Positions 72-55,885 of a DNA stretch of 64,000 bases are shown here, one piece after another. Position 1 is the first letter of the stretch; each line of letters begins with the position of its first letter. The notes under the pieces are model-generated. The model saw nothing but the letters and a program-made list of their open reading frames with translations. It had not been told where the DNA came from and made no database searches. The DNA comes from Thunnus maccoyii. Its lineage: Eukaryota > Chordata > Actinopteri > Scombriformes > Scombridae. Both the position numbers and the translations under genes were made by a program. Where the stretch lies: positions 20,756,501 through 20,820,500 of the forward strand of contig NC_056538.1 of assembly GCF_910596095.1 (NCBI RefSeq), read 5' to 3'.

Positions 72-16316
<16,245 letters not shown>

Positions 16317-18729: not shown

Positions 18730-19325
18730 ACCTTTCTCTGAACAAATACTCAAAATGACAATCGTGAGCCCTTAAACTTTAACTAGTCACATAAACTCGC
18801 AGTAATGAAATCATCATGCCTTAGTTAGATTCAAGATTCAAGAGCTTTTGTTGACACATGTACAGCAACATTAGAGTCAGTGAAATTTGGCTTTTTCAAG
18901 CTCAAATTCCAATTAGAGTGTATAATAAATGTTTGCAATTAATAACTTAATAACATCTAGGTGGCATATACAACAAAATGCAGACTCATCAAGACTTTTC
19001 TTTGACAGACATTTGTTGTAAAACTGAGAAAGTTTAAGAAATATTATCTCTAACCCCTATCCTCCTCCACAACACAGACACACACGATAAATACAGTTTA
19101 TGTAAGTTTTTGTCTGATCGCCTTCACATTGCCACCAACTTTTAAGTCATGTTACTTGCATTTAGTGCATTTAGACCGAGAACTCTTTTGCTCAAGTCTC
19201 AGGTCACTGGATTATTTAAATTGAAGCCTGCAAATTGCACATGAAACCCCCCAGCTCCCTGTAGTCTGGTAGGTGCGTAATAAGCACTGGGTGGTGGTCT
19301 CCGTTTCCTGCTTTACATCAATAAT
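18730..19325 (-). pseudogene. Remnant of a caspase gene 5' region, start exon deleted
   Basis: Closely matches the promoter, first-exon flank and start of intron 1 of the two intact caspases ('tctgatcgccttcacattgc', 'aagtcatgttactt', 'accgagaactctt', 'ggattatttaaattgaag'). Where they have 'gaactcttacctgccattg' (ATG exon and donor on the minus strand), this copy reads 'gaactcttttgctcaag', so the start codon and donor are gone. No caspase body follows at lower coordinates. Confidence 0.7.
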
Positions 19326-20098: not shown

Positions 20099-23000
20099 TC
20101 AAGCCTGACTCTGTGGCCTGAGGTAGAAGCGTCTTGTTAGAGTGCATCTTTCTTTGGTTGGCATCTGTGTATCGTGACCTCTCTCAGTGAGGACTAAAAG
20201 ATCTTCAAAGCGTTGCATCACCTGTGAGGTTGAAACAAACAGTGTATGACATTAAGCAAACAAATAAAACAAGAACATCATTACTGCTTGCTCTTTGGTC
20301 TTGTTGCCTGACAGCTGATATTACTTTCCACTAGATACATTGTATCCTATTATACATGAAAATTTTACACCCTGAAGAGAGTTTACACTTGCAAAACTTA
20401 CTTTTCTGAAAAGTTCATCAATGTCATCTTCACGCCAGCTGTCGTTGAACACCTCAACAATGTACTGGATAAGAAAAGACCCTTTATTTTCATCTCTATG
20501 TGAGACTGTATCTGCAGGAAAATAATACAGACAGTTTTTATTACATAAGGTAACTACTCTTAGCTGTTATTAATGCAGATTATTGATGTTTACATTCTCG
20601 AGCTTTAGAATAAGATCTGAGAATATTTCAGACAGACTCACCAGGAGTGGAAGAAAGAAGAGCAATGAAGTCTTTTTCCTTGTGTGCATGTCGCACAAAG
20701 TCCTCCTCGATGTCTTCGACACCAGCAGACAGGGATAGATCTGGCTGTTGCACATCATCACAAACCACAGCTGCTTGTGCACTATCACTAACAAGCACAG
20801 ATCCTTTCTTGCCTACAACACATGTGACATACTTTTAATACAGTGTATATGAGCCTCATCACTTAAAGACAACAAACAAGACATTAGAGGACTTTTTTTT
20901 CAGAGAGTCAGAGAGTTTTTTTCAGCATCTTTCAAATATCTGTAAGAACAGATGAGAATCACCTCCTCTGCAGGCCTGGATGATGATGATCTTGGGTTTG
21001 TTCAGCAGTGCTGGACATTTCTGTGTGTCCAAGTGTTTGTAAATGTTATCAATGGGGAATTTGTCTGGTTGCCCCTTTTTATGGTTGACACCGAGGACAG
21101 CTCCCGGTTTCCCGTGAGACATGATAACCACAAACACACTGTCTGTCTCTTTGACTTTTGGATGTTTGGAGAACTTAATTACAGCATCATCAATCTCCTG
21201 TGAGAACACAGAAAAGTCAGATGCCAGTTACTGTATCGCTCAATCAACCAGAGAAAATGTGTTTTTTTGTCATCAAAAGTACCTTTCCAGTGAGGTTTGT
21301 GTGTTTCACCACCTCGTATCCCAGCGCTTTAAGCAGTTTCTCCATGTTCTGCTCGTCTATGTCTGCTCCATCTCTGTTTAATTTCTCATCAGTAAACTTT
21401 ATGTTAGTGATTAGCAGGGCGATGCGACTCCTAATGGATTCTTCAGTCACAAGGTAGGGCTGAAAAATGGAAATTTAAACTAAGAAAGTTAATCAAAAAA
21501 TTATTATAATCATTTACAGGAAAAAATGTACTGGAACTTCTTAGTAGACTTTAATGAAAAAAAATTAAGCTCAAAGAAAACCATTTTATTTCTTGATGAA
21601 TGATGCACAAGAAACCAACTTAATGTTGGTTCATTTTGCATCAGAACTACATTTTTCTATAATGTTTCCACTGTTGGCAAATAGCTGAAGATAAATCTAT
21701 CAGTTAAGACCATGTGACATATTTGATAATGCTTTTATGAATGACTAACCTTATCATCGGTTCGTTTGAGTGTGGTTGACGACTTCTGCTGCAAAGACAG
21801 ACCCTGCACCGTCTGGGGCTCTGCAGCTGTGAACGGCAAAACACAACGTCACTGTTCAAAATGAAGTTCTTCTACATGTATACTACACCTATGAAATATG
21901 TCAGCTCACCTGGTTCAGCAGGTTGACCAGAAGACAGACCCAGGGTTTTGTGAAGTGAGGGATCTCTGCATTGAAGCTGAGCAATCATTGTCCTGCTGGC
22001 TTCATCTCCTTTCTTCCTCACTAAGTCAATGAGGCAGCGTGCCTGGTCTGCTCTGGATAAGTTCTCCTCAAGTACTGAGTCTTTCTCCCCGTCATTCATG
22101 AAACTATCCTCTAAAAGGTCATCCAGGAGCTGCTTAATAACTTCTTTGCTCACCTTCTCCACAAAGTTACGCCTCACCTTGAGAAGCTCCTTGTCTAGAG
22201 GAGGGAACATAAAGCAAAAAATAAATTTAAAAAATTAAAATATAATATTCTCAACCCATAAAAAAACACTTAATCCTTCAGTTTAACTGTAATATCCAAT
22301 ATTAACAAATGGGGTTGCCACTTATCCTGACAGTGATGAAAGGATGCTTGGATGTTTAAATTCTGAAAACCATCTGAAATCAATTTGTGATTTAATCATA
22401 TTTCAGTAACACTTTATGATAAGGTTAATAAACAAATGTTCAAGTGATAAATATAAATTAATGTTTGAAGTAACTGATGATCCACTATGCATTAACTAAT
22501 CACATAAACTCACAGTAATTAATAGTGAGCCACAAGAATCCATGATGCATTAAATCATCATGAATCATGCATTTTTTAACTCATTATAAACTGTTACCAA
22601 TATTTCTTCATGGTTTGTGTGTATATGTGTTTTCAAACACACTGTAATAGGAAACTATGAGTACTTCCCTTTTATATCGCGGGAGGAGGGTTGGCGGTGG
22701 TTTGTGCCCTTCCTCCTCACACAGAGCAGAAGCCTCCAAAGAATTTCACATCATAAATCATTAGACCATAAGTGATATATGTTTTAACTTAATGTACACT
22801 TTTCTGTCATAATCTGATACTTTAATACAAACCTTTACGGGCTGACCTGCGCTCTTTGGACATTTCAGCTCCATAAACTCGTGTTTAATGTTTTCCACCT
22901 TTCTATGAACAAACACTTGAAATGACAACCGTGAGGCGGTTATAACAGAAAACATATTGCAGTTGTCATTTCGACAGATCTTTCTCTTACACACTGAGCT

Positions 23001-23371
23001 GTTAATCGATATTTCGAAAAACAAAAAGGTTGCATCATATTATTTCATCTTCTTTTCTTTTTGCAAACAAAACAAAACAAAACAAAACGGAGCGGTCATA
23101 AACGATCAGCAAAGTGAAACTTAATAGTCTACGCGGTATATACAACAAAATTCAGACTCATCAAGACTTTTCTTTGACACACATTCGTTGTAAAACTGAG
23201 AAAACAGAAATATTGTGAAGAAATATTATCTCTAACCCCTATCCTCCTCACCGCCTCCACACGGTAAATACAGTTTATGTAAGTTTTTGTCTGATCGCCT
23301 TCACATTGCCGCCAACTTTTAAGTCATGTTACTTACAAAGTGCATTTAGACCGAGAACTCTTACCTGCCAT
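20099..23371 (-). CDS. casp1: Caspase-1-like inflammatory caspase with CARD, copy 1
   Basis: Cysteine protease of inflammasomes, expected to cleave IL-1-family precursors and trigger pyroptosis after CARD-mediated recruitment. Eight coding exons read leftward: 23365-23371 (ATGGCAG), 21910-22194, 21750-21826, 21283-21459, 20963-21197, 20642-20812, 20402-20511, 20099-20221. Every border is GT/AG and the sum (1185 bp) gives 394 aa with no internal stop. CARD is at residues 3-92 (starts DKELLKVRRNFVEKV), then a linker. The p20 part has SRIALLITN, catalytic His210 (SHGKPG) and Cys258 (QACRG); their 48-residue spacing equals that of human caspase-1. The p10 part contains VSHRDENKGSF and ends MPTKERCTLTRRFYLRP. 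A minus-strand AATAAA lies at 19940-19945. In the p10 specificity loop, Arg is kept but the preceding Trp of caspase-1 is His. Assignment to caspase-1 rather than caspase-4/5/13-type is by overall likeness. Confidence 0.9.
22390..22610. repeat. Interspersed AT-rich repeat in caspase intron 1
   Basis: 'aacactttatgataaggtta' with 'gatgcattaa' and 'catgatgcatt' phrases typical of a short fish repeat. A trace of it persists in the 18.7-kb remnant ('agtcacataaactcgcagtaa'), showing it predates that duplication. Confidence 0.5.
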
Positions 23372-24664: not shown

Positions 24665-25783
24665 ACATGCCATCCCTTGATCACCAATAATTTTCCTTAT
24701 TTTTTTCTTCAGGATAAAATTCTCAAAGACCAATAGCTTTCCTGCTTCTGGTGTATACATTATATATATAGGATCCCCCTGGGCGTCAGGTGGTTTACCC
24801 ACCATCATCTCAGCCAGAGTCCGGATCTCCCTGCCAAGCATGAGAAGGGTGGGTGAGCAGGAGGTGGAGTCCTGTGCAGCAGACCGGTACACCATTAGCA
24901 CAAGGGGCACATGGGTATCCCAGTCCCATTGGTGTTTAGCTGTCACAATGGCCAGCTGCTGTGCTAGTGTGCAGTTAAATTTCTCGACCAGGCCATTGCT
25001 CTGAGGGTGGAGGGGTGTGGTGCAGGTCTTGTGGGAGCCCAGTTTTTCACACATGGCTGCAAACACACAGGACTCAAAGTTCTTGCCCCCAGTATGAATG
25101 ACTTCGGGCACTCCAAATCTGCTGAACATTCCCTCCACCAGCGCATCCACTATGGTCTCTGCTTCCTGGTCCAGCAGGCAGTATGCCTCAGGCCACTCAG
25201 TGAAATAGTCCATGGCAGTGAGGATGTAGCAGTTACCTTGCTCTGTGTGTGGAAACAGACTGAGGGCATCAATCCCCACTCTCTCCATCGGGCACCCCAC
25301 TAGAAACTGTTGGAGCGGGGCATGAGATCTGTCTGTGGGCCCCTTACGGGCCTTGCAGCTATCACAGCGGCGGCAATTGTCCTCCACGTCTCGTTTGTGC
25401 TGGCCCCAGTAGAATCCCTGATGGAGGCAGCAGAGCATTTTGCCGACCCCGAAGTGACCAGATCCTGGGGCTCCATGTACCGCCTGGAGCACCACCTCCC
25501 TCAGGGCCCTTGGCACCACCACCTGCCAAAGTGTCTCTCATGTAGCTGGTTCTTTCCACCCCTTCTGCAGCACCCTGTCGCACAGGCGCAAGGCTTCAAA
25601 CATTGACCAGAGTCCTTTTGTGGCTCGAGAGCACATTCTGACCTCCTCCCATGAGGGTCGGAACTGTGTTGCCAGTCACCTGAGCACTGGTTTGATGTCG
25701 ACGTCCTCCTCCTGTTTGTGCCTCCACTCAGCTGCACCCACAGCTATTAGTTCATGCTCAGCCAGCTGCCCCTCTGACCCCAT
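24665..25783 (-). pseudogene. Ty3/gypsy retrotransposon integrase remnant
   Basis: Minus-strand integrase region. A zinc-binding HHCC segment is seen in HGAPGSGHFG and CRRCDSCKARK. The core follows: GIDALSLFP carries the first Asp, HPQSNGLVEKFN the Glu. The position of the second catalytic Asp reads HTGGKNFES instead of the usual SDQG-type motif. Upstream sequence reads on in frame but is broken by stops at 25538-25540 and near 25680. No LTRs, reverse transcriptase or gag were found, so this is a truncated, inactive copy. Confidence 0.85.
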
Positions 25784-34382: not shown

Positions 34383-34759
34383 TTTTCTGAAAAGTTGATC
34401 TATATCATCCTCATGGGAGCGGTGATTGAACACCTCAAGAATGTACTGGATAAGAAAAGCCCCCTCTTATGTTTCTCTGTATGAGACAGTATCTGCAGGA
34501 GTACATAAACAGAAAATACATTTAGTTTTTGTTACTATTCTTGTCTGGTATCAGTGCAGATAATTAATGTTTATCTTCCTGAGCTTTAGGATCACAAGGG
34601 CCTCGTCACCAAGACATTAGCAGACTTATACAAGGCTGTATTATTATACAGAAAATAAAGCTAGAAATTATGTTGATGTTAGGTGTATTTGTGAGAATAG
34701 ATGGGAATCACCTCCTCTGCAGGCCTGGATGATGATGATCTTGGGTTTGTTCATCAGCG
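34383..34759 (-). pseudogene. Caspase fragment: p10 exon and end of p20 exon
   Basis: 34383-34492 is a 110-bp copy of the p10 exon of the caspases with both splice sites kept, but it meets a stop after DTVSYRET. 34712-34759 is the last part of the exon carrying the active-site Cys codon, cut off on its 5' side. The exon normally between them is missing. Intron sequence ('cagacttatacaaggct') follows that of copy 2. Not functional. Confidence 0.85.
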
Positions 34760-35129: not shown

Positions 35130-37080
35130 TGCGGGGAGAAGGCAGGAAAGGTGCTAGCTTCAAGACTTAAAAAGCAGATGACTAAAAATACCATATCTTG
35201 TATTAGATTACCAAATAACTCAACTACCACTGATCCAGATCAAATAAATAAAACCTTTACTAACGTTTATGAAAATCTCTACAAGTCACACAGTGATGAT
35301 GAACCCGATTCAACGCAGTAATTCTTAAATAATATTTATCTTCCCTGATTATTAGAGGAAGAAAAAATGCATTGGAACAGCCAATAACCATATTTGAAAT
35401 AAATAAAGCCATTAACTCACTCATTTTCTGAAAATAAATCTCCAGGGCCTGATGGTTATAATCCAGAGTTCTTCCAACACTTTAGTGAGGATCTATCCCC
35501 TCTATTTTTGCAGGCTTATCAAGCATCATTTGTGAATGGAAGTTTTCCACCCATGTTTAATTATTCCCACATAACTTTAAGTCATAAAAAAGATAAAGAC
35601 CCTTTAATCTGTAACAACTGTAATCCAGTATCATTAGCAAATTTAGATAAAATCCTGGCCAAAATTCTTGGAGCAAGATTAGTTCATGTAATCAGAATGA
35701 TGATACATACTGACCAAACTGGATTCATGAAAAATTAACATTCATCTGATAATTTAAGGAAACTATTCAGTCATTCAATGCGCAAAAAAGGCTCCCTCAT
35801 CCAGTAGCACTGTGTACTTTAGATGCTGAAAAGGCCTTTGATTGAATTGAATGGTCCTTTATGTTTAGTACCCTGCAGAAATATGGGTTTGGTAACAATT
35901 TTATGCAGTGGATTAGGATGATCTACTCAAAGCCCACAGCTTCAATAGGAACTAACAATGTAATTTCAGAAAATTTCATTTTACATCAAGGAACAAAACA
36001 AGGATGTCCAGCTTCAGGACTTTTATTTAATCTAATCATTGAACCGTTAGCTGAGAAAATAAGATCTGAAAAGAATATTAAAGGCATAAAAATTGGAAGT
36101 CAAATATATCAAACATCACTGTATTGTGATGACCTCATTCTCTACCTAACAGATGTGGACTCCTAACTTTGTATATCAATCAGATTAATTGAATATGGCT
36201 CACTCCCAGGATACAAAGTAAACTGTATATTAATAAAGAAATAACATATTTAGGATTAAGAATTACAACAAATAGCTATCAAACACAAGATATAAATCTC
36301 ACACAAACATTTAATAAAACAAAATCAAATATAGATCGATGGTCAAATCTTCCCATATCTCTGTGGGGTTGAGTGAACATAATAAAGGTGAACATTCTTC
36401 CTAATGTCAATTACACTCTGAGGATGTTAGCTGTCACAATACAAAAAACCTGGTTTGAACATTTGCATAAAACAATCTCAACCTTTATTTGGCAAGATGT
36501 TCATACTTAAGGATGTCTATAGATCATACAGAAAAGGTGGAATACAGCAACCCAACTTCTTTCACTTTTACATATCCTTTGATTGTCAGTAAGTTAGTGA
36601 CTTTGATCCTTCTGTAAGCAAAGATTGGAAATACATAGAAGAAAATATGTTTCGAAGCTTAAACATTGACACAAAATGTCCATAATTTATGAAAATATTT
36701 CCAAAGGAAGTAATGCAAAGCCCAATCAAAGCGCCATTTAACATCCTGAAATCACATACAAAGATCATTGAATAAAACACAGATACTTCAATAACTCAAC
36801 CGTGGCAAGATCAAATATAACAGTAAACAAAAAGGTTATAAGATGGAATAAATGGAAAGATATTGGAATAACTAAACTTTATCACATATTTTCTAACAAC
36901 TGTTTTAAAACTTTTAATGAATTATTCAAGGAACCTAGTATCCCAAAAACGGAATACTTAAATCACATCACTCTATGGCATACTATTAAAAAGAATATTC
37001 CCACAGACAAATTGAACACTGACACACTCAAATTTGAAAATATACTTTTTAACCACAGCTTGTCCAATATTAAATGAAAG
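35130..37080 (+). pseudogene. L1-clade LINE reverse transcriptase remnant
   Basis: Broken ORF2. 'SPGPDGYNPEFF' and then a readable frame 35508-35738 (CNPVSLANLDKILAKILGAR). A second frame 35861-36166 holds the palm (HQGTKQGCPASGLLFNLII and SLYCDDLILYL). The catalytic box reads YCDD instead of the usual (F/Y)ADD. A later frame at 36802-37077 belongs to the C-terminal part. Several stops and frame changes; inactive. Confidence 0.85.
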
Positions 37081-37304: not shown

Positions 37305-40300
37305 TCAGAGGCCTGGAAAGAGGTAGAAGCGCTTTGGGAGAGTGCATCTGTCTTTGGTAGGCATCTGCTTTTTGGTCGCAGAGGGGAAGTCCTCTTCAAA
37401 GCGTTGCATGACCTGTGAGGTTGAAACAAACAGTGTATGACATTAAACAAGGCAAATAAAACAAGAACATCATTACTGCTTGCTCTTTGGTCTTGTTGCC
37501 TCACAGCTGATATTACTTTCCGCTAGATAGATCGTATCCTATTATATACAAAAATTTTACACCCAGAAGAGAGTTTACACTTGCAAAACTTACTTTTCTG
37601 AAAAGTTCCTCAATGTCCTCCTTATGCGCAAAGGTGTTCAGTACCTCAAAAATAAACTTGATGAGAAAAGATCCATGGTCTCTATTTCTATATGAGACAG
37701 TATCTGCAGGAAAAACATACAGACAGTTTTTATTACATAAGGTAACTACTCTTAGCTGTTATCAATGCTGATTATTGATGTTTATGTTCCTGAGCTTTAA
37801 AATAAGATCTGATAACATTTCAGACAGACTCACCAGGGGTGCAAGAAAGAAAACGTATGAAGTCTTTTTCTTTGTGTGCATGTCGCAAAGCATCCTCCTC
37901 GATGTCTTCTACACCAGCAGACAGGGATAGATCTGGCTGTTGCACATCATCACAAACCACAGCTGCTTCTGCACTATCACTTACAAGCACAGCTCCATCT
38001 TTTCCTGCAATACATGTGACATACTTTAAATACAGATCACAAGGGCCTTGTCACTTAAAGCAACAACCAAGACATTAGCAGACTTATACAAAGCTATATT
38101 ATTATACAAAAAATAAAGCTATTAAATGTAGGTCCTAAAAAAAAACATGTTGATGTTTGGTGTATCTGTGAGAACAGATGAGAATCACCTCCTCTGCAGG
38201 CCTGGATGATGATGATCTTGGGTTTGTTCAGCAGCGCTGGACATTTCTGTGTGTCCAAGTATTTGCAAATGTTATCAATGGGGAATTCGTCTGGTTCCTC
38301 GTCTTTATGGTTGACACCGAGGACAGCTCCCAGTTTCCCGTGAGACATGATAATCACAAACACGCTGTCTGTCTCTTTGAGTTTTGGATGTTTGGAGAAC
38401 TTAATTACAGCATCATCAATCTCCTGCGAGAACACATAAAAATCAGATGCCAGTTACTGTATCGCTCAATCAACCAGACAAAATAATACTTTTAATTTAC
38501 ACTAACATGAGAAAATGTGTGTTTTTTTTTTAATCAAAAGTACCTTTCCAGTGAGGTTTGTGTGTTTCACCACCTCGTATCTCAGCGCTTTAAGTTGTTT
38601 CTCCATGTTCTGCTCGTCTTTCTCTGCTCCATTTCTATTTAACTTCTCATCAGTAAACTTTATGTTAGTGATTAGCAGGGCGACGCGACTCATAATGGAA
38701 TTTTTGGTCACAGGGTAAATCTGAAAAATGGAAATTTAAAGTCACACAAAGTGACACAAAAATGTATTATGATAATTTACAGGAAAAATGTAATGTACAT
38801 AGTAGACTTTAATTTTGAAAATTAAGTTCAAAGAAAACCATTTTATTTCTTGATAAATGATGCACAAGAAACCGACTTGGTTAATTTTGCATCAGAACTG
38901 CATTTTTCCATAATGTTTCCACTACTGGCAAATCACTGAAGGTAAATCTGTCAGTTAAGACCATGTGACATATTTGATAATGCTTTAATGAATGACTAAC
39001 ACTTTTATCATTCTGTTTTTCCCTCCAGAATGCTTCGGTTGTTGGGATGAGTGTCGGTGACCAGTCCTGCACCGTCTGGGGCTCTGCAGCTGTGAAGGGC
39101 AAAACACAACATCAATGTTCAAAATGAAGTTCTTCTACTTGTGTACTACACCTAGGAAATATGTCAGCTCACCTAGTTGAGCAGGTTGACCAGAAGACAG
39201 ACCCAGGGTTTTGTGAAGTGCACGATCTCTGTGTTGAAGCTGAGCAATCATCTTCCTGCTGGCTTCATCTCCTTTCTTCCTCACTAAGTCAATGAGGCAG
39301 CGTGCCTGGTCTGCTCTGGATGAGTTCTCCTCAAGTACTGAGTCTTTCTCCCCGTCATTCATGAAACTATCCTCTAAAAGGTCATCCAGGAGCTGCTTAA
39401 TAACTTCTTTGCTCACCTTCTCCACAAATTTACCCCTCACCTTGAGAAGCTCCTTGTCTAAGAGAAGGAATATAAAGCAAAAAAAAAAAAAAATTACACA
39501 TTTCAAATTTTTGTCTGAGGTGGTTTCAAAGAAGGTGCTAATACTGAATCAGATATAACATTAGAAATATAATATCATGCTAATTTTTTTTTTTTATTTA
39601 GGGATTGTGGTCAGGTGAAGCCATTTATTTTTACATAATTCTGTGTGCCCTTTTTAAATCACAATGATAACTGAAATCACCCAAATGGCTCTGATCAAAA
39701 GTTTACATACCCTTGAATGTTTGACCTGATAATACACACACAAACTGACACACACAGGTTTAAATAGCTTCCACACGTGTGACTTGTTTGATTGTAATTA
39801 GTGTCCTTGTATAAATAGTCAATGAGTTTTCTTGAGAGTTGAACTTTATAAATTAGGAAGAGGATATAAAAAGATATCCAAAGATATGAAAATGCCAATC
39901 AGTAGTGTTCAAGCTCTGATAAAGAAGTGAAAAATTAGGTGTTCTGCTGATACCAAGCCACGGTCAGTTAGACCAACAAAGATTTCAGCCACAAATGGCA
40001 GGAAAATTGTTCGAGTTGCAAAGAAAAACGCACATGCAACTTCAGTTGAAATACAGACTTCTGTAAAAAAAACGTGGTGAGGCTGTTTCGAGATGCACAA
40101 TAAGGACGTATTTGAACAAAAATGGGCTGCACGAGTTGCCAGAGTGATGAGTCCAAAATTTAACTTTATGGTCACAACCATAAACACTATGAATGGTACA
40201 CATCTTACAAAGTCTGCCAGGGTATGTAAACCTATTACCACAACTGTGTACATACTGTATACACAAATATGCATTAGACCTATATTGCACATAAGTGATA

Positions 40301-41129
40301 AATCGGTGAATTAGTGTATTGCACATAAGTGGTATGTGAATATATGTGGATATATGAGTGCTGCATTACTGAGCCCCTATATACTTTATGTATATATGTG
40401 TTTTCAAACACACTGTAATAAACTATGAGTACTTCCTTTTCGTATTGCGAGAAGGGGTTTGGCGGTGGTTTGTGCCCTTCCTCCTCACACAGTGTGGAAA
40501 AGAAGCGTCCAAAGAATTTCACATCATAAATCATTAGACTATAAGTGATATCTATTCATGTCCGCCCTTCTTTCATAAGAAATTCTTTAATAAAAACTTT
40601 ACAGGCTGACCTGCGCTCTTTGGACATTTCAGCTCCATAAACTCGTGTTTAATGTTTGCCACCTTTCTCTGAACAAACACTTGAAATGACAACCGTGAGG
40701 CGGATATGAATATAACAGATAACATATCACAGTTGTCATTTCAACAGATCTTTCTCTTATACACTGAGCTGTTCATCGAAATTTCGAAAAACAAAAAGGT
40801 AGCATCATATTATTTTTTTTCTTTTTGCAACCAAACAAAACGGGGCGGGCATAAACGATCAGCAAAGTGAAACTAATAGTCTAGGTGGCACATACAACAA
40901 AATTCAGGCTCATCAAGACTTTTCTTTGACAGACATTCGTTGTAAAACTGAGAAAGTTTAAGAAATATTATCTCCAACCCCTATCCTCCTCACCGCCTCC
41001 ATAACACACAGTAAACACACGATAAATACAGTTTATGCAGGTTTTTGTCTAATCGATTTCGCATTGCCGCCAACTTTCAAGTCATGTTACTTGCAAAGTG
41101 CATTTAGGCCGAGAACTCTTACCTGCCAT
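37305..41129 (-). CDS. casp1: Caspase-1-like inflammatory caspase with CARD, copy 2
   Basis: Same exon plan as copy 1, reading leftward: 41123-41129 (ATGGCAG), 39173-39457, 39001-39089, 38544-38720, 38189-38423, 37834-38004, 37594-37703, 37305-37412. Total 1182 bp, 393 aa, no internal stop, all GT/AG. CARD at residues 3-92 (EENSSRADQARCLIDLVRKK). The CARD-p20 linker exon is 12 bp longer than in copy 1 and reads quite differently (DWSPTLIPTTEAFWREK). Catalytic His214 (SHGKLG) and Cys262 (QACRG) are kept. In the p10 loop VSYRNRDHGSF, Arg is kept and the Trp of caspase-1 is Tyr. It ends MPTKDRCTLPKRFYLFPGL, the usual caspase-1 tail, so copy 2 is the more typical at its end. A Tc1-like remnant sits in intron 1. 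Presumed role as for copy 1. Confidence 0.9.
39690..40245 (+). mobile_element. Internally deleted Tc1-like element in caspase copy 2 intron 1
   Basis: Left end 'gatcaaaagtttacatacc' and right end 'agggtatgtaaac' are inverted. Inside, transposase-like text ('accaagccacggtcagttag', 'aatttcagccacaaatgg') survives without an open frame. Absent from the equivalent intron of copy 1. Confidence 0.7.
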
Positions 41130-43050: not shown

Positions 43051-44601
43051 GATCTTATTGCAAACAGACTGTATAGTAAATGACAGGAATCATCCATATA
43101 TGACCATTATGCAAATATAAATACAAATGCATTTGGACTACATTCAGTATAATTAAGGACTCCCTACAAGTGGTTGTAATTAAATCACTTTACTTAATCT
43201 TTATAGATATTTCTCCATCTAGCAAAAATAAATCAATATTTTTTCTTTTTGAAACATTTCACGACTGTGAAATTTCATACCCACAAAACATTTTTATATT
43301 TCATAACTTGGACTTCTCCCTGGAAAATACAAGGTGAAAAGATCTGCTGCTGGTGAAGAACAAAATGTAGACTTCTGCCGGCCGACAAGGTTTTATTTTC
43401 TTTGCAAAGAAAAGGTCATGGTTTTTAAAAAATGAGTAGTGTACAGTACTCAGTGTAACTGAATCTACTAGACTTCTTTGTTACTCTCTGCTCTCTAAAA
43501 CTAAACAAGATGAAAAGTATCATGATATGTCTCTGAAACCAATCCAACACTTGCTGAAAACATTAGTGTAGTGTACTATATGCATAGAGTTTGTATCCAA
43601 GACATCAAGTATGAACATATATCCTATATCTTCATTTTCCCTGTCCACAACACATCAGCAGGATGAATGGCAAGTTCTGCTCCTCCTGAGACACTGTGGA
43701 TGGAAACAGCAAAACACAAAGTCACTGCAACAGATTACTGTGTATGTATTTAAGATATGTATTTCTCTGTTTCTCTCTGTTCTCGAAGCTACAGTACAAT
43801 ATAGGGTGTCACACTTAAAGGATAGGGCTGGTGATATTCAGTATTATTATTGTTTTCAATAAAATCCCATGAAAAGATGGAAAAACAACAATGAACCTCA
43901 ATTGTTGTACAAAAACAATAAAAAAACACATGAGTAAGCCCTGCTGCTGCACTGGCTCACATGTTTTTTTCATTACAGTTAACATGGACACTATAGTTTA
44001 TACCATCCTGCTGCTGTAAATACTCACTAACACACCAAATGTGTAGTAATCCGCAGCTGAAAATAGTCCCCCAACAAATACACTATGTACTCCTGTTTGA
44101 GTGACGTTTGCTAAAAATGACAGTGCCCAGCTATTAAAGGAAATTACTGAGCCTTTTGGGAAAATGAAACTATATGTTTGATACCCCTTTTTTTAAGGTT
44201 TTGGTCTTCAGTAAGAACTAATCTGCTTGGGGCCGAATGCTACAAACAAGTTAGTACATGTCAGGAAACAGAATGTATTGAGAGACAGACTACAGCGTTG
44301 TTGGTTTTGGTCTTTTCATGGGATTTGTTGACAATAAGAGAAATATCAAATAAAGCCAAATTTATTATTTGAACAAAAATAGGATAAATGTATTCAATAC
44401 AGTTATTGTCACTGTGATTACTGTTCAAAACAATATATTTCTCTATGTACTGTATGTAACATAGCTCTGAACATAACAGTGTCAAGGTACAATATTAATT
44501 TGTGACAACACTTGCATAAAAGTAGGGCAAAGGTCTCCCTAGCTCATTAATGTTTAGCAACTCCTGTGAAATATGTCAGCTCACCTGGTTAAACAGGTGG
44601 A
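43051..44601. other. No gene recognised; possible caspase linker-exon trace
   Basis: At about 43665-43735 the text 'cagcaaaacacaaagtcactg' resembles sequence beside the caspase linker exon ('cggcaaaacacaacgtcactg'), which would fit a decayed third copy. No p20 or p10 exon was found in this stretch. Confidence 0.4.
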
Positions 44602-46254
44602 TCAGGGCAGGCCCAGGGTTCTGTGAAGTGCAGGATCTCTGCATTTAAGGTGAACAATCAACTTGCAGCTGGCTTCATCTCCTTTCTTCTTCACCGTGTC
44701 AATGAGACAGCGTGCCTTGTCTGCCTTGCTCAAGTTCTCCTCAAGTATTGAGTCTTTCTCCCCATCATTCAAGATACCATCTTCTAAAAGGTCATCCAGG
44801 AGCTGCTTAATAAGTTCTTTGTTCGCCCCCTCCACAAATCTAACCCGTACCCTGGCGAGCTGGTCTAGAAAAATAATTATGGAGAAAAAAAACAAAATTT
44901 GGTTTCTGAAGGTGGTATAAGATCCTAAAGATGAATATGACAGTAAAATATTTACAAAAGGTGTCTGCAGATCTACATTTGAAACTCAAAATATGATTTG
45001 AAATGAATATATGATGTGAAAAATATAAACATATTTCTCAAATGTTTTCCACATGGTTAAGTTAAACTGTAATGGTAGATAATGGGTGAGCGGTGGAAGA
45101 AGTACTCAAATCCTTAACTAATGTGCTTAAGTTACAAATACCCTCTTATAAAAAAAATACTCCATTACAAGTAAAAAGTATTGCATTCACAATTTTAGTT
45201 CAGAAGTTTCAGAGAGCTATATCATAACCTATGATATATTATTGGATTACTATTAGTGATGCATCAGTATGTAAGCAGCATTTTAACATCATAACGGGTC
45301 AAGTTACTTTATGTACTATTGGGTTTTTTAAACTATAATAAAAACGGATCATTGTTTTGTATTAAAATCCTAATCTGCAGATTAACTAGTAATAATAGTT
45401 GTGGAATAAATGTATTTTAGTAAAAGATACAATATTTACATCTGAATTGTAGGTGGAGTAGAACTATAATGTTGCATAACAGGGAAATACTCAGTTAAAA
45501 GTACCTCAAATTGCACGTAAATCGGATGTACAGTACTTTACACTACTGCAATGAATGTAACCCGTAAAGGTAAAGTGTGTCTGTGTTTTGGGTCATTGTG
45601 TGTCTTCCTAGGGTGGTTATGAAACCTATATGACATGTAGTTTTCCTAGAGGCGAAAATTAATGTGTCTATAATAGTATGAATTTATATTTTTTTATATA
45701 CGGGTTTCTCAATCAGGGGAAATGAGTCAGTGAAACCATTCATTTCATCTAATCTCTTATGTATGGTCATAGTTTTTGCCACCTAATCTTAAAAAAGTTC
45801 TTGACCTAAAAGTTCTTGACCTAAAAACATCACAAGTGGCTTTCAAAGTTGTGGGATTCTTATGGCTAAAGCTTGTTTATGCATCTTTATGGAGGAATGC
45901 ATACCCTGGGCTTTCAGTGTCACTTTTTCTTTCTAAAAGAAAAAAAACACTCGGCTAGTTTAAAATAAGGCGGATGTGAGGAGCAACCGTCTGTCGTGCG
46001 TAATGTAATTTGGATACGCCCACGCTGCAGCTCAAAGCTGCACTTAACTTTGCGCAAACTTTACTTGTAACTCTCGACATAGCTCATATTAGCGTCACAC
46101 AAAGGAAATACTAAAAAACTAGCCTCCTTTGCAGACTCCCTACTTGTAGATCTGACCGCCTGTATCAAACTACCGCCGACTTTATCTTGAGTTATACGCA
46201 CATACACAATTGCATGAAAAATACATTTAGACCACAAATCATCTTACCCGCCAT
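44602..46254 (-). CDS. CARD-only protein derived from the caspase array
   Basis: Two exons: 46248-46254 (ATGGCGG, donor gtaag) and 44602-44864 (acceptor ttctag). Open frame of 89 aa. The whole product is a caspase-1-type CARD (MADQLARVRVRFVEGANKEL, later DGEKDSILEENLSKADKARC), ending HRTLGLP then TGA. Copies 1 and 2 read on (LGLSSGQPA...); here two bases fewer after the LGL codon bring in the stop 17 nt before a still-present splice donor (at 44584). No catalytic exons are found downstream. Length and content resemble the mammalian CARD-only proteins COP/CARD16 and ICEBERG/CARD18, which bind and inhibit caspase-1. Function here is inference. It may also be a pseudogene. Confidence 0.7.
45090..45560 (+). 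repeat. Dispersed repeat ('ggtggaagaagtactcaaat' family), forward copy
   Basis: Starts 'gcggtggaagaagtactcaa' and continues 'actccattacaagtaaaaag', phrases of a frequent fish repeat. Lies in the intron of the CARD-only gene. Confidence 0.65.
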
Positions 46255-46529
46255 TGCTCATGAAACTCGTATCACAGAGTCGTGCCGCTTAAAGCCAAAC
46301 GAGTTTTACTGTAACACCAAAAGTCCTTCCCGCTTGTACTGTAGTGACGTATGCGTAAAGTTTTGGAGATGTCGCGTCATGGATTATTAGTTTCGGGGTG
46401 GAGTCATCATGCTTTCCGTGAATCCTTTTACTTCTTCACCATGCCAATGAGACAGGGCTCTCTTTACTTCTGTGTTGTTTTTTCTTGAAGTCTCAGTAGT
46501 AAAGAGTCAAGCAGGGTCGAGCACTGTGC

Positions 46530-47332
46530 TTTTGTGTAATTTTGAGGCTACTTCACTTAAATACATTTCCATTCTCTGCTACATTATGCTTTTATTATTA
46601 TTTGCCTCCAAAAAGTAGTGGAGTAAAACTTCATTTATACAGCACATTTCATTCGGAAAGATGTAATACAATGTGCTTCACAAAACCATGAAAAACACAA
46701 CAACAAATGCAATGCTGTACTTTTTACTCCCTGTTTATCTGCATCAGTAGTAAGGATCCAACAATGTAATATGGAAAAAGAAGATAACTCCAGGAGTCAT
46801 TCTGCTGCATAACCTTTAATATATTAAGTACATTTTTCTCATGATGCTTCTGAACGTCTTTTTTCTTCAGTAGAAATATTGAATGCAGGACTTGTAACAC
46901 TTGAAATACTTCTTCTGCCACTGCATTTCTTTAACAGCTGCTCTGCAGATTAAGATTTTGGGTGACATACAAAACTCCTCATATATAATATCCATGTGCA
47001 ATGTGCATTATCAAAGACCACACAAAAAAGGTGGCGAATACATCAAATGTTCACCCATATGTGTCATTCTGGATGTGAAAAATGCATTGTTACAGATTAA
47101 ATGTTGCAATTAGAATATAAAGTAGTTAAAATAGCTACAGCCACAACATTAAAAATAATGATTACACATTAATGCAATGACTAGTAAAACAAAAATGTAA
47201 TATCCATAGTAAAATGACAGTATGAAAGGGGGCATTCTCCAAATCTTAGTTACTTTTGATACTTTGAGCACATTTATCTAAAAATACTTGGTTTTTACTT
47301 AAGCAAAGGTGCCGAGTACTTCTTCCACTGCT
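46530..47332 (-). repeat. Dispersed repeat ('ggtggaagaagtactcaaat' family), inverted copy
   Basis: Ends 'gagtacttcttccactgctg' immediately before the second CARD block, so it appears to have been inserted into that exon. The left border is approximate. Confidence 0.55.
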
Positions 47333-47379
47333 GAGTCTTTCTCCTCATTACTCAAGAACCAGACTGTAAGGTCCATAGA

Positions 47380-47382
<3 letters not shown>

Positions 47383-47440
<58 letters not shown>

Positions 47441-47457
47441 GATTGAGAGAGAGAGAG
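47383..47457 (+). repeat. (GT)n and (GA)n microsatellite
   Basis: About 24 GT units followed by a short GA run. Confidence 0.95.
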
Positions 47458-48012
47458 AAATACATAATGTAATATGTGTACAATTTATGACATTAATAAA
47501 TATATTAATATATTACAGTAGGTGTGTTTACTGAATCTATTTCGGATTGCTACATAAAAGATATTGCTTAATGTAGCCATTCAGAATACCAAAGACAGTT
47601 CTTGCATATTAAGTTCAGGCAAAATTGAAAAAATAAAATCATTGTCTGCAATATAAATGCACAATTATGAGATTATCTTCATGATTGAAAGCATGGTTTG
47701 TTCTCATGGAGCTATGATAATCAAAATTCTACCAGAATCTTTGTTTTTTTGGTTCATTCGAGACAAGCACAGTTGTCCTATGCTCATTACTTAAAATAAA
47801 AACCAGTATTGGTAGAAAAATACAAGGATTAAAAATACAATATAAGCCTCTTTCATCATAGATTCCAATTAGAGCAAGTTTAAAAATGGATCCAGGTAAG
47901 GTGGCTGCCATATGACTCCATCCCAAAATGGCAGTTCACTATGACTCATTGCATCTATGGCAACGGTCATCCAGGAGCTTCTCATAATACCATCCACAAA
48001 CTTCACAACCTG

Positions 48013-49490
48013 ACGACATCTGTACAAAGGGAGATATTAGGATTTAGATAAGGTCCTTTTAGCAGAACACAGTGTGACATGTCGCAGTAGAAGAAGAAAA
48101 TGGCTGAATTCCATTTAGCTGCTTCAGTTTCAGGGTCCTGATGTTGTGCATGATGGCTCAAGATTCAAGATTCAAAAAATGTCCCAGAGGGGAAATTTGC
48201 TTTACAGACAGTAGTCCAACACAAATACATACAATACAACATACACAACACAGCACAAGATCTGTTCCTCTTACACTGTCTACTACGCATTAAAATACAC
48301 AATTTTTTACTTTTATGGCCTTGATATTTTCAGAAAAACACTCAATTTGCATCTTACATTTTACATATCTCCAGCTGATTTCCCACATTTTCTCACTCAG
48401 TAGCACATATGCTATCATAAAATCTCATAAGTGGCTCATGGTAATATATTGGCCTTTTTGTTTGGTTTGCTCACATAAAAAAATATTTACAAAAATAAAA
48501 TTTAAAAACAAGTGCAATTCTGCCCATCGTATTTCTTTTGCAACACTAATCATCACAACATGATATACCCTTTTGACATACAGTACTGGGCAAAAGTTTT
48601 AGGCACTAAAAGTAAAGGGAGGATGCTTTCAAAAATAATGGAATTTATCAATAACTTCATAAAAAGTTCAGTAAAAAGAGGAAACCTAAATGAAATCAGT
48701 ATTTAGTGCAAGCATGCTTTGCCTTTAAAACAGCAGCAGTTCTCCTCGGTACACTTGCAAACAGTTTTTCAAGGTTCTTGGCAGGTCGGTTGTTCCAAGC
48801 ATCTTGGAAAAGTTGCCACAGTTCTTCTGTGGATTTAGGCTGTTTCAGTGTCTTCTGTCTCTGCATGTACTCCCAGACTGACTCCATGATGTTGAGATCA
48901 TGGGTCTATGTGGGAGCCAAACCATCTGTTGCAGGACTCCTCGTTCTTCTTGTTGCTGAAGATAGTTATTTATGACTCTGGCTGTATGTTAGAGTTTGTT
49001 GTCATGCTGCAGAATAAATTTGGGAAAGATCAGACGCCTCCCTGATGGTATCGCATCAGGGATAAGAATGTAAACATCTCAAGTGCCTAAACTAGGTCAC
49101 CAAAGACACCACCTCTTTGACACATTTTATTTCACTATGACTACTTATGTTCAAAAACAAACTTTGGACTTCAATTTATATCCAGCTTACTGTTTTGAGC
49201 AGTTGAACAGACTTGCAAAAAACATTAAACTAATGGATTAGTCCACCAAAATTGGGCATCTAAAACTGCTTTTAAAGGGGCGGTTTTATATCGTCTTATA
49301 TAATAGGAATGTGCGTGTTTCTATTGAAAAGGGTCTTAACTTAGAGTATTAACATCAATATTTGTAGCAAATAAGAATGATTAACATTATTATTTCCTCA
49401 CAATGCCATTTTTTTCTGATAAAGTATATTGGCTATTGCACTGTGTCAACGCTAGGTGGCGATAAACAATTTATATTCATGCGTAACACA
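48013..49490. other. Intergenic; interspersed repeats
   Basis: 'tcaagattcaagattcaaaa' with 'gtcccagaggggaaattt' at about 48158-48200 is a common fish repeat start. A Tc1-like element follows (48579-49065). No gene seen. Confidence 0.6.
48579..49065 (-). mobile_element. Tc1-like element remnant 2 with transposase C-terminus
   Basis: Begins TACAGTACTGGGCAAAAGTT. The minus frame 48696-48887 reads VWEYMQRQKTLKQPKSTEEL and FQDAWNNRPAKNLEKL, the C-terminal end of a Tc1 transposase. The rest is deleted or decayed. Confidence 0.75.
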
Positions 49491-50321: not shown

Positions 50322-53300
50322 ATGTTGAGCCAGCGGCGTGGTATCCATCTGGACCAGTCCGAGCTGCTTTGCAAGAAAGGATGCGGTTTTTATGGCAACA
50401 CAGCTTGGCAAGGCCTTTGCTCAAAGTGCTGGCGAGAGGAATATCAGCGAGACAGACAAAAACAGATTCAAGAAGACTGGGCACTTGCTGAGAGGTTTGT
50501 CTGTCTTTGTGTTGTCATTTGAACTCTTATTTCTACACAGTGTCTGTTGCTGTCTTACCTCCTCATCTTCTTTTGCTTGAGTTCCTGTCCATCTGTCCAC
50601 CTGACAGCGATTAACAGTGGTGCTGTATTTTCCCGTCCTAGGCTGCAAAGAGAGGAAGAGGAAGCGTATGCAAGTAGAAATCAGAAGGCCCAACCACAGC
50701 CCTCCATCACACCCTTCAGCAAGTTTGAGGAAAGGAAAACAAAGGAGAAGTCCAGCAAGGTCAACACAGTCACAAAGTTTTTTACTCCTTCCACAAAAAC
50801 ACCGCCAAAAAAAGGTACATCATTTTACACACTGTAAGAGATGCTAGTCATTTATCATCAAATATTTGTAATTTTACAGGTATTTTTGCTGCTCTTGCAT
50901 TAAGAGATAACTGTGTCGATATCAAGCACATTTTTGTGTGACTGGCTTTCATAACCTGTTACTGGAGACACATGAGGAAATAAAACCAGACTGTGGTCTC
51001 CCAAATTATCTCAATAATCCGTGTCTCTTTTCAGTTCAACCACTTCCTTAGATTTGTTGCTATAACCTACATACAGTCTGGTTAAAAGAGGCTATTAGAC
51101 TTCAGCACACAGCAACACTATGTGGCAAAGGAAGTGCTTATACAGTGCTTATACAAAATCATCATACCCCTTTGAAATAGTTACTTTATTTGTTGTACAG
51201 CCTGAAATCAAAATCCTTTTTAAAAAAAACAAAACAAAAAAAACTTTTCCAGCTTTATTTACAAATTAAACCTTACAACATCAAACTAATGAAAAAAAGG
51301 CAGCAACAGGGTTGGGAAATTCATCAGTCCCCTGATTTAATACTTTGTAGAGCCACCTTTTGGTACAATTACAGCCATTAATCTGTTTGGATATGTCTCT
51401 ACTAGCTTTGCACACCTAGATTGGGTAATATCTGCCCATTCTTCCTTGCTGAATTGTTCGAGTTCAGTCAAATTCGGTGGTGAGCAGCAATGAACTGCTC
51501 TCTTCAAGTCCATCAACAGATGTTCTATCGGACTTAAATCAGGGCTCTGAATTGGCCACTCAAGTGCATTTACCTTCCTGTCCTTAACCCACTGCGTTGT
51601 TCTTTTGGCAGTATGTTTAGGATCATTGTTGTGTTGGAAGGTGAATGACCTGCCCATCCACAGCTGTCTAGCAGAGGGACGCAGGTTTTCCTCAAGAATT
51701 TGAGTGTACTTGGCAGCATCCATTTTCCCTTCAGTCCTGACCTATTGCCCAGTCCCCACTGAAGAGAAACATCACCACAACGTAATGTTGCCACCACCAT
51801 ACTTCATAGTAGGTGTGGTGTGTTTCAGGTTGTGTGCTGTGTTTGGTTTTCGCCAAACATGTGCTTGGAGTTCAGTCCAAAAAGTTCAGTCTCAGTCTCA
51901 TCTGCCCACAGAAACGTTTTCCACATGGCAACAGAATCTTCCAGGTTTGTTTTTGTATAGCACAAACGAGACTGTGTATGGCACGTTTTCAGAAAAGGCT
52001 CCTTTGTTGCCACACTGCCATATAGGCCAGCTTTGTTTAAAGCTTATGAGATTGTTGTCACATGCACAGACAGACCAGTCCCAGCCATAAAAACTTGTAA
52101 GTCCTTCAAAGTTGCCTTTAGCCTCTTGGTAGCCTCTCTGATCAGTGTCCTCCTGGCTCAGTCATCCAGTCTGGACGGACGGCCTGATCTAGGCAAGGTG
52201 TTGGTGGTACCATACGTTTTCCACTTCTTAATGAACAGTACTCAGTACTCTGAAGCCTTAGAAATCTTTTTGTAGCCTTCACCTAACTTGTACCTTCCTC
52301 CAACTTTATCCCAGAGGCCATTTGAAAGCACTTTCCCAACCATGGTGAATGCTTTGCAGTACCATTCACTACTAGTAGTGGAATCACTGGTTTTATTCTG
52401 AATTTTTATTCTGTAATCAAAATCACTATACTTGATGTCAGGTGGGGGGCAATTAGCCTGGTGTTTGATCTAGAAGTTGATTGGTTGCACTTGAGCAAGT
52501 TTATAATGTTATACTGTAAGGGGCTGATCACTTAACCAAACCAGGTCTTTCACTAATTCATTTTTAATAATTGTCCAGAATTTTTTTAAAATGCTTTGAT
52601 GATGAGGGTTATATTGTGTACATGCAGCTCAAAAAAGTTATTTTTTTCATTTATTTTAATTTCCAGGGTGTAATGTGACAAAGGTTAAAGTAACATTCAA
52701 TATCTTCTCCCAGATGCTTCTCCTTTTGATGCTCAGTCCAGCCCAAGCCCCAGCTCGTCAGCAAGCCGGCATTCCTCTGTGGACACTGACCACGCAACGC
52801 GGGAGTTCATTGATTTTCTCAAGCCTCTGAAGTCTGGCAGGGAGATCTTCAAACAGTGCCGGGCCTTCACTGAGAGTATGGCCTATAAGCGGGTGAGCTA
52901 CAGTGGATTACTTGCAATGTTTTTGTGTGTTAGCGGGTGAATTGAGCTTTTAGGAGACAGGTTATTATTGTGTATGAATATCTGTGTAACTTGTTCATTT
53001 TTGCTTAAATTTATTTTTTGTGTGTTTTTGCTCAAAGCAGGTGACACTGATTGCAGTAGTTGTTTTTTTTAAAGTCATTGTGATTGCATTACTTATCATT
53101 TTCCACCAGTGTGTACCTGTTTTACTCTTTAATTACCACCTGTCCTGATTAATTACTAAACACATCACCTCATTAAGTGTCTATATGAATGAAATAAGCA
53201 CAAATTGCTTCATCTCAAATGTTGAAAACAGGCAGCATTTACTTTTTTCATGACATTGTCAAATATCTTGAACATTTAACATTTAAACATAGAGCTGGTG

Positions 53301-55885
53301 GAACGTTCAAAGCTTCCCTACAAGATGCTGACTGTCGTTTTGTTGCCTTAAGTGAAAACAAGTTTTTGTTGTTATCAATATCAAATGTGAAAATCTGCTG
53401 CCTTCAGTCTTTGTATTTCTAAAAACTTCTACACTGTGTTAAATAGGAACTATTTATCTATTTAACATTGTCTAGTAATTGTCACATTTGAACAGATAAG
53501 GTGATCACATTTTAATATATAAAACTATCAGAATATAAGACCTACCAGTATAATTGTTTATGTCCATTCCTTCATACAGGACATGGGTGCTGACGAGCTG
53601 TCAGAGTGTGTACAGGACTTTTACCAGAACCTCTCAGAACGCCTCCAGACCCAATTCAAAGGTACTGCTTTACTCTTGCACTCATGAAGAATCAGCTATA
53701 AACAGATGAGTCTGAACATCACAAACCTTATACAATATATTCTTTGTGCTTCTATGTCTAGGTTCATCAGAGCATGTAGAGAGCGTTATGGATGAAGTAG
53801 AGAAGTACATGATGACTCGTCTCTACAAGGAAGTCTTCTGTCCTGAGACCACAGATGACGAGAAGAAAGACCTGGCTATTCAGAAGAGAATCAGGTTAGT
53901 GCACAACAGTTGTAATAATGCCAGAAAATGCGACTTAAATCGTCATTAATCTCCCTGAATTTCCTCAGAGGACAATGACTCACCATTGCGGGTAAAATGA
54001 CAACATCAGAGTTACTTAGATTGAAATTCTGATTGTGTTTTTTACAGAGCCTTGCACTGGGTCACCATTGAGATGCTGTGTGTCCCTGTAGACGAGGAGA
54101 TCCCTGAAGTGTCTGACAGTGTGGTTAAAGCCATCACAGGTGAGAGTTAATTTTCAGAATGCCACAGCAGGACATCACCTCATCATCCTGGTGGTAGAGA
54201 TCCAGTAAGATTTTCAGATGAACAATTTACCATCTCCGCATCATTCCAGATGTGATCGAAATGGATTCCAAGCGTGTGCCCAAGGACAAGCTGGGGTGCA
54301 TCACTCGTTGCAGCAAGCACATCTTCAATGCCATCAAAGTCAGCAAGAAGGAGGCAGCGTCTGCAGATGACTTCCTCCCCACACTCATCTACATTGTGCT
54401 GAAGGCAAACCCTCCACGGCTTCAGTCCAACATCCAGTACATCACCCGCTTCTGCAACCCCAGCAGACTCATGACTGGAGAGGATGGTTACTACTTCACT
54501 AACCTGGTGAGGAAATTAGTACATGCTTGTGTAACCCCTCTATTCCACTCGACGACTTCTCTCAGGTTCACGGCACATTTATTTCTCAGCACAGCTGTTA
54601 GAAAAACACACATCAATGTGGCTGGTGATGGTCAGATATACAGTACAGCTCCTTGCCCCACATCTGAAATTGGCAGTGGCAAAAAGGATGAGCTGACGTT
54701 TTCCAGTCACTATATTTAACACCACCGACCACGGGAGGGCGCTCAAATCAACAAATAAAAGGAGCCTTGCATAGATAAACACAGGATATTAACCTGTTTT
54801 CAGAGAAAATAATGAAAATGAAAAACAGCAAGATAACTTGCCTGCAAAATAAAACAAATACTGAATGTCTTTTAGCCACAAGACGGTTAACATTATTCTG
54901 TGTAGCAGTTACAGTAAGCAGATCATATCCTGAAAACCTCGTACTTCACAGTGTTATTGTTCACTCCACTCATCATAAAACCAACAGCTGATTTGCTCTG
55001 GTAGTGAAGTCAGAAGAATTAAGAAAAAAGTCAGTGAAGAGGTCTTAAAATCTCTGAAACATTTAAGGCCTCAAGTAGCCTTGAATATAATTAAATACTG
55101 GTGTTTTACGTTTAAAGTCATTTATAACGGTTTTAAAAATATTTCAGGTTTTAGTCTTCTGTTCTTCTGTCTACTGATCGGTCGATAACTTTTATTTTCA
55201 AGTTCTTGTCTGTGTGGATGGGTATGTTCACCACTCCAATTGGCATAAAGGCGTCTTTAAAAGTTAGAAATTTGAGGAAATCTGGGGACTCCTGGTGATC
55301 AAGTGGTCTCTCCCCTCGTTTGCTATCTGTCTCATCTGTCCAATAAAGGATAAAATGCCAGAACATTAATAAAAGAAAATCTGATGTTACTGACAATATG
55401 ATGATGTTCTACAGTGACTTTTTCCCTTAATGACCCTCTACGTCCTCTCTCCCCAGTGCTGTGCAGTGGCCTTCATTGAGAAGCTGGATGGCCAATCTCT
55501 GAACCTGAGCTCTGAGGAGTTTGAGCTCTACATGTCGGGCCAGGCATCCCCCAACTGGCCTCAGGCTGCTGGAGCTTCCTCCTGCTCCCCAGGCAGCACA
55601 CCTCTCAGTCAGGTCCATAAACGACTGGACCTGCTAACAGGGCTCGGGGAAAGGCAAGACCGTGTCATGGAGAAGGCTCGCCAGCTGGAAAACGACCTCA
55701 TCGACTGGACGGACGAAGTGGAGCAGAAGGTGCAGAACGTTCTGCAGAGTTTCCCACCAGAGACGCAAAACCCTACCCCAACCACGGCTACTTCGACATC
55801 CGCATCTTCATCAGCAATCGACTCTGATAATGTTGAGAATGAGCTCCTGCCGCCACCACTGCAACCGCAAGTGTTTGCTGGTTGA
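50322..55885 (+). CDS. rabgef1: Rab5 GEF Rabex-5
   Basis: Guanine-nucleotide exchange factor for Rab5 on early endosomes, partner of Rabaptin-5, and ubiquitin binder. Exons: 50322-50494, 50642-50814, 52714-52892, 53580-53661, 53762-53894, 54048-54139, 54250-54506, 55457-55885. Sum 1518 bp, 505 aa; human Rabex-5 is 491. The A20-type zinc finger has C17, C21, C33, C36 ([20 protein letters not shown]). A helical ubiquitin-binding stretch follows ([20 protein letters not shown]). Then a helical bundle (residues about 140-245) and the VPS9 domain to about residue 380, with catalytic Asp317 (ADDFLP) and Tyr358/Thr361 (GYYFTNL). The C-terminal coiled coil (about 420-460, [18 protein letters not shown]) matches the Rabaptin-binding region. 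All borders are GT/AG. The start is the first ATG in the exon, matching the family N-terminus [17 protein letters not shown]. Confidence 0.96.
51135..52690 (-). mobile_element. Tc1-like transposon in rabgef1 intron
   Basis: Minus-strand transposase text spread over several frames. The frame 51337-51723 has [20 protein letters not shown] and [20 protein letters not shown], including the second Asp and final catalytic residue of a DDE-type enzyme. An upstream frame near 51825-52013 has [11 protein letters not shown] with the first-Asp region shifted. Frameshifts make it inactive. The tail near 52550-52690 has 'aatttccagggtgtaatgtg', the usual outer region of these elements. Confidence 0.85.

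Follow-up and report, generated by a model that had tools for sequence, protein, structure and literature searches.

The gene c3, which lies on the minus strand of the 64,000-nucleotide window analyzed here (C6:20756501-20820500) and upstream of the caspase-1-like gene c2 on the same strand, is best explained as an old tandem duplicate of caspase-1 that is now an 89-residue CARD-only gene under its own CpG-rich promoter; this reading is preferred tentatively, at a little under an even chance. With the primate CARD-only proteins (COPs) as precedent, c3 is plausibly an independent CARD18-like gene.

c3 consists of two exons on the minus strand. The start exon (46248..46254) reads ATGGCGG and is followed by the donor GTAAGA; it is identified both by pattern and by profile homology. 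The pattern ATGGCN...GTRAG has three matches on the minus strand of the window, which are the start exons of c3, c2 (41129), and c1 (23371), and a profile built from the start-exon regions of the other five copies matches the segment 46275-46151 (E = 2.2e-6), with homology extending just ~20 nt upstream of the start. The CARD exon (44585..44864) begins at 44864 behind the acceptor side TTTTTCTAG, is coding to 44605 with its frame open to a TGA at 44604-44602, and ends in a 17-nt tail before the donor GTGAGC, which runs from 44584. The 7-nt start exon is in phase with the CARD exon, the two together giving 89 codons, and the acceptor and both donors are intact. CARD is the sole protein domain (Pfam E = 7.9e-15; 55.1 bits against a cut-off of 23.9). 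In a three-copy alignment c3 has two bases fewer than c1 and c2 directly before the stop, and the acidic patch is present as DGEKDSILEENLS in c3, DGEKDSVLEENLS in c1, and DGEKDSVLEENSS in c2. The anatomy given in an earlier note on this DNA is thus borne out: an intact start exon, splice sites, and 89-aa CARD, a two-base loss that brings a stop 17 nt before the old donor, and a preserved acidic patch. Lesions in the parental frame, of the kind expected in a pseudogene, are present in c3 as the two-base deficit relative to c1 and c2 and the stop that follows, together with the undetected catalytic exons; the promoter signature and splice sites have not decayed as a pseudogene's would, and upstream sequence homology is largely gone.

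Downstream of the stop, a relic of the linker exon with a candidate acceptor (AG at 43695-43694) lies at 43663..43727 on the minus strand (nhmmer E 1.2e-7). The p20 and p10 protease exons of a functional caspase-1 are not found: five exon profiles searched over the 3.3 kb from c3 to c2 (44600-41280) give no match below E 0.1, and the best match (E 0.12) is on the wrong strand. If the donor is unused, an AATAAA at 44361..44366 (minus strand), one of two AATAAA/ATTAAA motifs in the 1.6 kb after the stop, could act as a poly(A) signal; it may be a chance occurrence. By the usual rule, with the stop 17 nt before the donor, a transcript that ended in exon 2, or that had one further junction, to the linker relic, would be safe from nonsense-mediated decay, and one that continued into the c2 exons would be unsafe; that a junction to the relic would be the last is plausible, since the relic has a candidate acceptor and no catalytic exon was found beyond it. 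An out-of-frame ATG at 46259..46261 (minus strand) stands 7 nt before the c3 start codon; the upstream ATG of the other five copies, within 100 nt, is at -54 instead. The eight genome matches of c3 include no retrocopy of its transcript, which would have been evidence of transcription.

In our judgment, the genes present and the anatomy of the caspases fit a bony fish. The window holds two intact caspase-1-like genes of eight exons on the minus strand, c2 (37305..41129; 393 aa) and c1 (20099..23371; 394 aa), with GT-AG splice sites throughout and the string KPKIIIIQACRG in both. A CARD search of the genome (782 Mb in 54 contigs) gives 26 matches, seven of them of caspase-1 type: c1, c2, c3, three on contig C11 (C11a, C11b, and C11c), and a relic on C8 that has an internal TAG. 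The remaining 19 (39-48% identical) are presumed to be CARDs of other gene types. The CARD of c3 shares 62-72% identity with five caspase-1-type CARDs of the same genome; c3 aligns with c1, c2, C11a, and C11c over the CARD exon and its edges only, and these four align mutually over most of the gene. Derivation of c3 from a caspase-1 duplicate, within the caspase cluster, is supported at the sequence level, and c3 is an old paralogue of c1/c2 and the C11 cluster.

The C11 copies are in different states. In C11a the CARD is open and p20 contains a stop. C11c can be read as a complete caspase of 377 aa; its CARD exon (C11:30684526-30684774, plus the following intron) seems to run directly to the linker donor, with the loss of intron 2 and of the greater part of the linker exon, and the caspase is still open. 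In C11b a TAG stands immediately after the CARD (C11:30680062-30680322; L034:6062-6322) and p20 is cut short; since C11b and the intact C11c share 97% identity across 2 kb, C11b is regarded as a young and independent CARD-only truncation. The protease has been lost in three of the six caspase-type copies with an open CARD, which therefore points to a birth-and-death cluster with recurring CARD-first truncations. Between c2 and c1 in the window, another caspase copy has left a catalytic-exon relic at 34383..34757 (minus strand), in which the last part of p20 and a stop-bearing p10 exon survive. Upstream of the c3 start exon are three colinear weak CARD-exon matches on the minus strand (47985-47958, 47367-47324, and 46457-46428; E 0.0076-0.12), and these pieces in 46428-47985 are perhaps one more shattered copy. 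Fragments of mobile elements (integrase, H2C2 and rve; reverse transcriptase) also lie within the caspase cluster, at 24665-25537 (minus strand) and 35846-36163 (plus strand).

Promoters that are unmethylated in the germline keep their CpGs and methylated ones lose them. The c3 start exon lies in a CpG-rich segment, a candidate living promoter, at 45930..46430 (o/e 1.17; 26 CpG in 500 bp). Over 500-bp windows the CpG o/e of the window has a mean of 0.31 (SD 0.18), and its top peak, at 1.17, is centered at 46180, 74 bp inside c3 intron 1; the c3 peak ranks second with 300-bp windows and first with windows of 500, 800, and 1000 bp. Peaks mark the other start exons as well: c1 has 1.14 (second in the window), C11b 0.96 (at 7760 in L034, with the start exon at 8000), c2 and C11c 0.92 each, and C11a 0.70. 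All six copies with a start exon show a peak (0.70-1.17) and all four dead fragments do not (0.62 at most); CpG peaks also occur elsewhere, as an unassigned one at 3260 in the window (0.92, level with c2) and as four peaks of 0.70-0.83 in other C11 sequence. In three of the dead controls the o/e is 0.50 (C8 CARD relic, upstream 3 kb), 0.45 (a C11 CARD fragment, upstream 2 kb), and 0.62 (upstream of the 34-kb catalytic relic); the stretches used here are guesses, because the start exons of these fragments are not known. The best dead-promoter control, its place being known, is an orphan copy of a caspase promoter and start-exon region at 18944..19321 (minus strand), downstream of c1, from which the start exon has been deleted. 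This copy is 83-85% like c1 and c2 and has a CpG o/e of 0.27-0.35, which is background level; the matching stretches give 0.88 in c1 and 0.48 in c2, so that the orphan copy stands well apart from c1 but only modestly apart from c2.

Two other sources of the c3 peak were considered. A repeat origin is ruled out by the single genome match of the CpG segment, which is itself, in a search that skips very common words. The opposite strand carries, at 50370-54716 and head to head with c3, a RABGEF1-like gene with an A20-type zinc finger and a VPS9 domain. It is unlikely that the c3 peak is a property of this gene, whose first recognized exon, that of the A20-type finger, is at 50370 and which has peaks at 49460 and 50020; it may still have an unrecognized exon upstream of 50370. 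In the aligned part of the c3 segment, six of eight CpGs are not common to c1, c2, or C11a, and the CpGs are therefore not simply inherited. Upstream sequence of 87-110 nt that is common to the other copies has no match in c3 by blastn; one further upstream piece, of 92 nt, is common to c2 and C11c. As a candidate reading, the CpG signature suggests a promoter that has stayed live over most of the time that c3 has existed, with the proviso that a peak can outlast damage for a time, since the broken C11a still peaks at 0.70.

Constraint on the c3 CARD was assessed in several ways. Pairwise Ka/Ks is 0.75 with c1 and 0.93 with c2, the comparison that the earlier note had singled out, and 0.80 with C11a, 0.66 with C11b, 0.74 with C11c, and 0.41 with C8. 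These values do not refute that note's proposal and cannot decide on c3, because the CARDs of the three intact copies give 1.07, 1.25, and 1.26 among themselves; Ka/Ks was accordingly rejected as a decider. In codon models (85-86 codons, seven sequences; tree bootstraps 76-100) ω on the c3 branch is indistinguishable from 1. On the terminal branch, in trees that include the C8 relic, it is 0.39-0.43 (p = 0.12-0.13 for a test against 1); with the stem it is 0.72-0.74 (p = 0.46-0.49), and without C8 it is 0.89, where the lnL difference from ω = 1 is 0.04; for the c3 CARD, neutrality is thus not rejected, with ω about 0.4 to 0.9 by model and p from 0.12 to about 0.8. All branches other than c3, those of the broken C11a and C11b among them, have ω near 2 (test against 1: p = 0.011-0.028), which exceeds the c3 value (p = 0.018-0.027). 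With just the three intact copies, ω is 1.99 in the CARD (2ΔlnL 2.98 against ω = 1, not significant) and 0.82 in the catalytic part (2ΔlnL 1.17). As an observation in its own right, ω near 2 on the CARDs of c1, c2, C11a, C11b, and C11c is a hint that the CARD of fish caspase-1 evolves under positive selection, which has been reported for primate CASP1 (PMC11383037).

Changes specific to c3 were counted at sites where c1, c2, and C11a agree and c3 differs. The CARD exon has 25 in 216 sites, against 23 in 83 for the intron flanks (p = 0.0013), 36 in 113 for the flanks with the 5' leader (p = 2e-5), and 15 in 52 for the linker relic with its intron edge (p = 0.0039). The 3' edge of intron 1, with 46 of 95 positions mismatched to c1, is excluded from the flank counts because its alignment is poor even between c1 and c2. 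By codon position, the CARD changes are spread evenly (8 of 68, 8 of 74, and 9 of 74), a pattern that does not point to constraint on the protein and that agrees with gene conversion or neutrality. The c3 CARD exon thus changes more slowly than its surroundings, but not in the manner of selection on the protein. In a neutral simulation the CARD stays open with a probability of 0.19 (26 changes) to 0.09 (38 changes), where the numbers of changes are estimates from the tree and the frameshift rate, taken from the c1/c2 gene alignment with exons included, may be too low; given this chance, the open CARD was not accepted as proof of function.

The main rival of a CARD-only gene is a silenced, unprocessed pseudogene, which has lost its catalytic exons and its frame after the CARD, whose CARD is open by recency or luck, and whose promoter signature is left over; this is a real possibility, although it is given less credence than the CARD-only gene, itself held with reserve. 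The rapid turnover of the cluster, seen in the broken copy at 34 kb, in the orphan promoter at 19 kb, and in the C8 CARD relic, is what a pseudogene would lead one to expect, as are the catalytically broken state of two of the three C11 CARD copies, the even spread over codon positions, an ω compatible with 1, the simulated chance of an open frame, and the peak kept by the broken C11a. Left-over promoter sequence accounts less well for the strongest 500-bp CpG peak of the window sitting on a start region in which c3 has diverged at 17 of 60 agreed sites (28%) in the intron 1 edge and 13 of 30 (43%) in the leader, when the orphan promoter copy, although much younger, shows none; nor does it account for the CpGs private to c3 or for a CARD exon slower than its flanks. 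The CpG evidence tips the balance toward a CARD-only gene, and the codon-position evidence pulls the opposite way.

That same evenness, with changes at all three codon positions below the divergence of the flanks, would also follow if gene conversion with c1, c2, or the C11 copies kept the c3 CARD exon similar whether or not it is expressed, and repeated conversion of CARD16/17 by CASP1 has been reported in primates (PMC11383037). Conversion is nonetheless improbable as the explanation: c3 and the C8 relic group outside the c1, c2, and C11 copies (bootstrap 76), which gives no sign that a living copy has recently converted c3, and primate CARD18 is likewise described as being without recent conversion (PMC11383037). 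It is similarly doubtful, and far less credible than a pseudogene, that the CpG peak marks an alternative promoter for c2, with transcription from ~46.25 kb and splicing from 46248 to the c2 CARD exon (39457) past a skipped c3 CARD. Exon 1 of c3 is in phase with the c2 CARD exon, c2 lies downstream as the next copy on that strand, and its CpG peak is the weaker of the two (0.92 against 1.17); but an intact start exon and a promoter peak belong to c2 itself, and an intact acceptor, CARD, and donor of c3 would need to be skipped.

Among solved structures, c3 matches human ICEBERG/CARD18 best (E = 1.7e-12), followed by 6j52 (1.4e-10), which we take to be the CARD-only protein of frog virus 3, and caspase-1 (3.2e-8). 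This ranavirus protein resembles c3 in being short and related to caspase-1/ICEBERG CARDs, as is the 91-aa CARD-only protein of a grouper iridovirus (PMC4457926); these are viral genes, whereas c3 belongs to the host, contains an intron, and sits in a caspase cluster, and a family-alignment scan of viral contigs for relatives confirmed none of 86 pattern stretches. CARD18 is the closest likeness: the CARD is the only domain, the lengths are 90 and 89 aa (PMC7555848), and CARD18, like c3, is linked to and derived from caspase-1. c3 starts MADQL and the ICEBERG chain ADQLL, and both stop one residue past an aligned GL. c3 differs in its independent origin, for its identity to five caspase-1-type CARDs within the genome is 62-72%. 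It is probably not an ortholog of primate CARD16/17/18, since it is closer to these own-genome CARDs, its match to ICEBERG is weak, and the primate genes are described as confined to primates (PMC3775265). CARD16 (COP) and CARD17 (INCA) are also caspase-1 duplicates, with most of the coding sequence, CARD included, in exon 2 plus small exons (PMC3775265), but their proteins continue past the CARD, whereas c3 stops within the CARD exon; they are described as kept close to CASP1 by conversion (PMC11383037), and c3 is more diverged. For CARD16 filaments, D27 and R45 are reported as needed (PMC7555848). By our placement on the ICEBERG alignment, the counterpart of D27 would fall within the LLDD motif of c3; the R45 position is E in c3, likewise in c1 and c2.

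Among fish, the sea bass caspase-1 resembles c1 and c2 in its reported 8 exons, 394 aa, and KPKIIIIQACRG active site (PMC3511578). It is reported as single copy, with truncated isoforms that arise by splicing and retain p20, and a COP/ICEBERG-like competition of these isoforms through CARD contacts is suggested only (PMC3511578). Caspase-1 expansions in fish are already known, since the round goby genome is reported to have 18 caspase-1 copies with CARD or PYD (PMC6988351).

The proposed course begins with tandem duplication of a fish caspase-1 gene, which would have given rise to c3, and loss of the protease part; the two exons and the CpG-rich promoter would then yield an 89-residue CARD-only protein. 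Transcription and translation of c3 are predicted. The protein, if made, would dock by CARD-CARD contacts on the c1 or c2 caspase or on the CARDs of recruiting adaptors, so that less active caspase would be recruited and the threshold of inflammasome activation would rise, an effect reported for the primate COPs. All three such proteins of humans are reported to bind caspase-1, and reports on CARD16 and CARD18 disagree on damping as against seeding of caspase-1 assembly (PMC7555848; PMC11383037); because of this disagreement, the sign of a c3 effect in fish is put forward only by analogy. The independent inflammasome decoy proposed in the earlier note stands in its caspase-1 origin and CARD-only coding potential, to which the CpG signature adds independent support, while the function itself remains a prediction.

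Animal CARD-only regulators of caspase-1 have been described as restricted to primates, mice and rats being without them (PMC7555848; PMC3775265). The literature matches listed, which take in few subscription papers, include no report of a caspase-1-derived CARD-only gene in fish. It is possible, though the weight of judgment lies on the other side, that a CARD-only inflammasome regulator arose from caspase-1 independently in teleosts and converged on primate CARD18 even in the position of the stop, in a cluster that buds CARD-first truncations, C11b being the second and younger one. If a separate fish origin is true, cutting caspase-1 after the CARD would be a repeatable route to an inflammasome brake, and fish would provide a model in which such a brake could be deleted.
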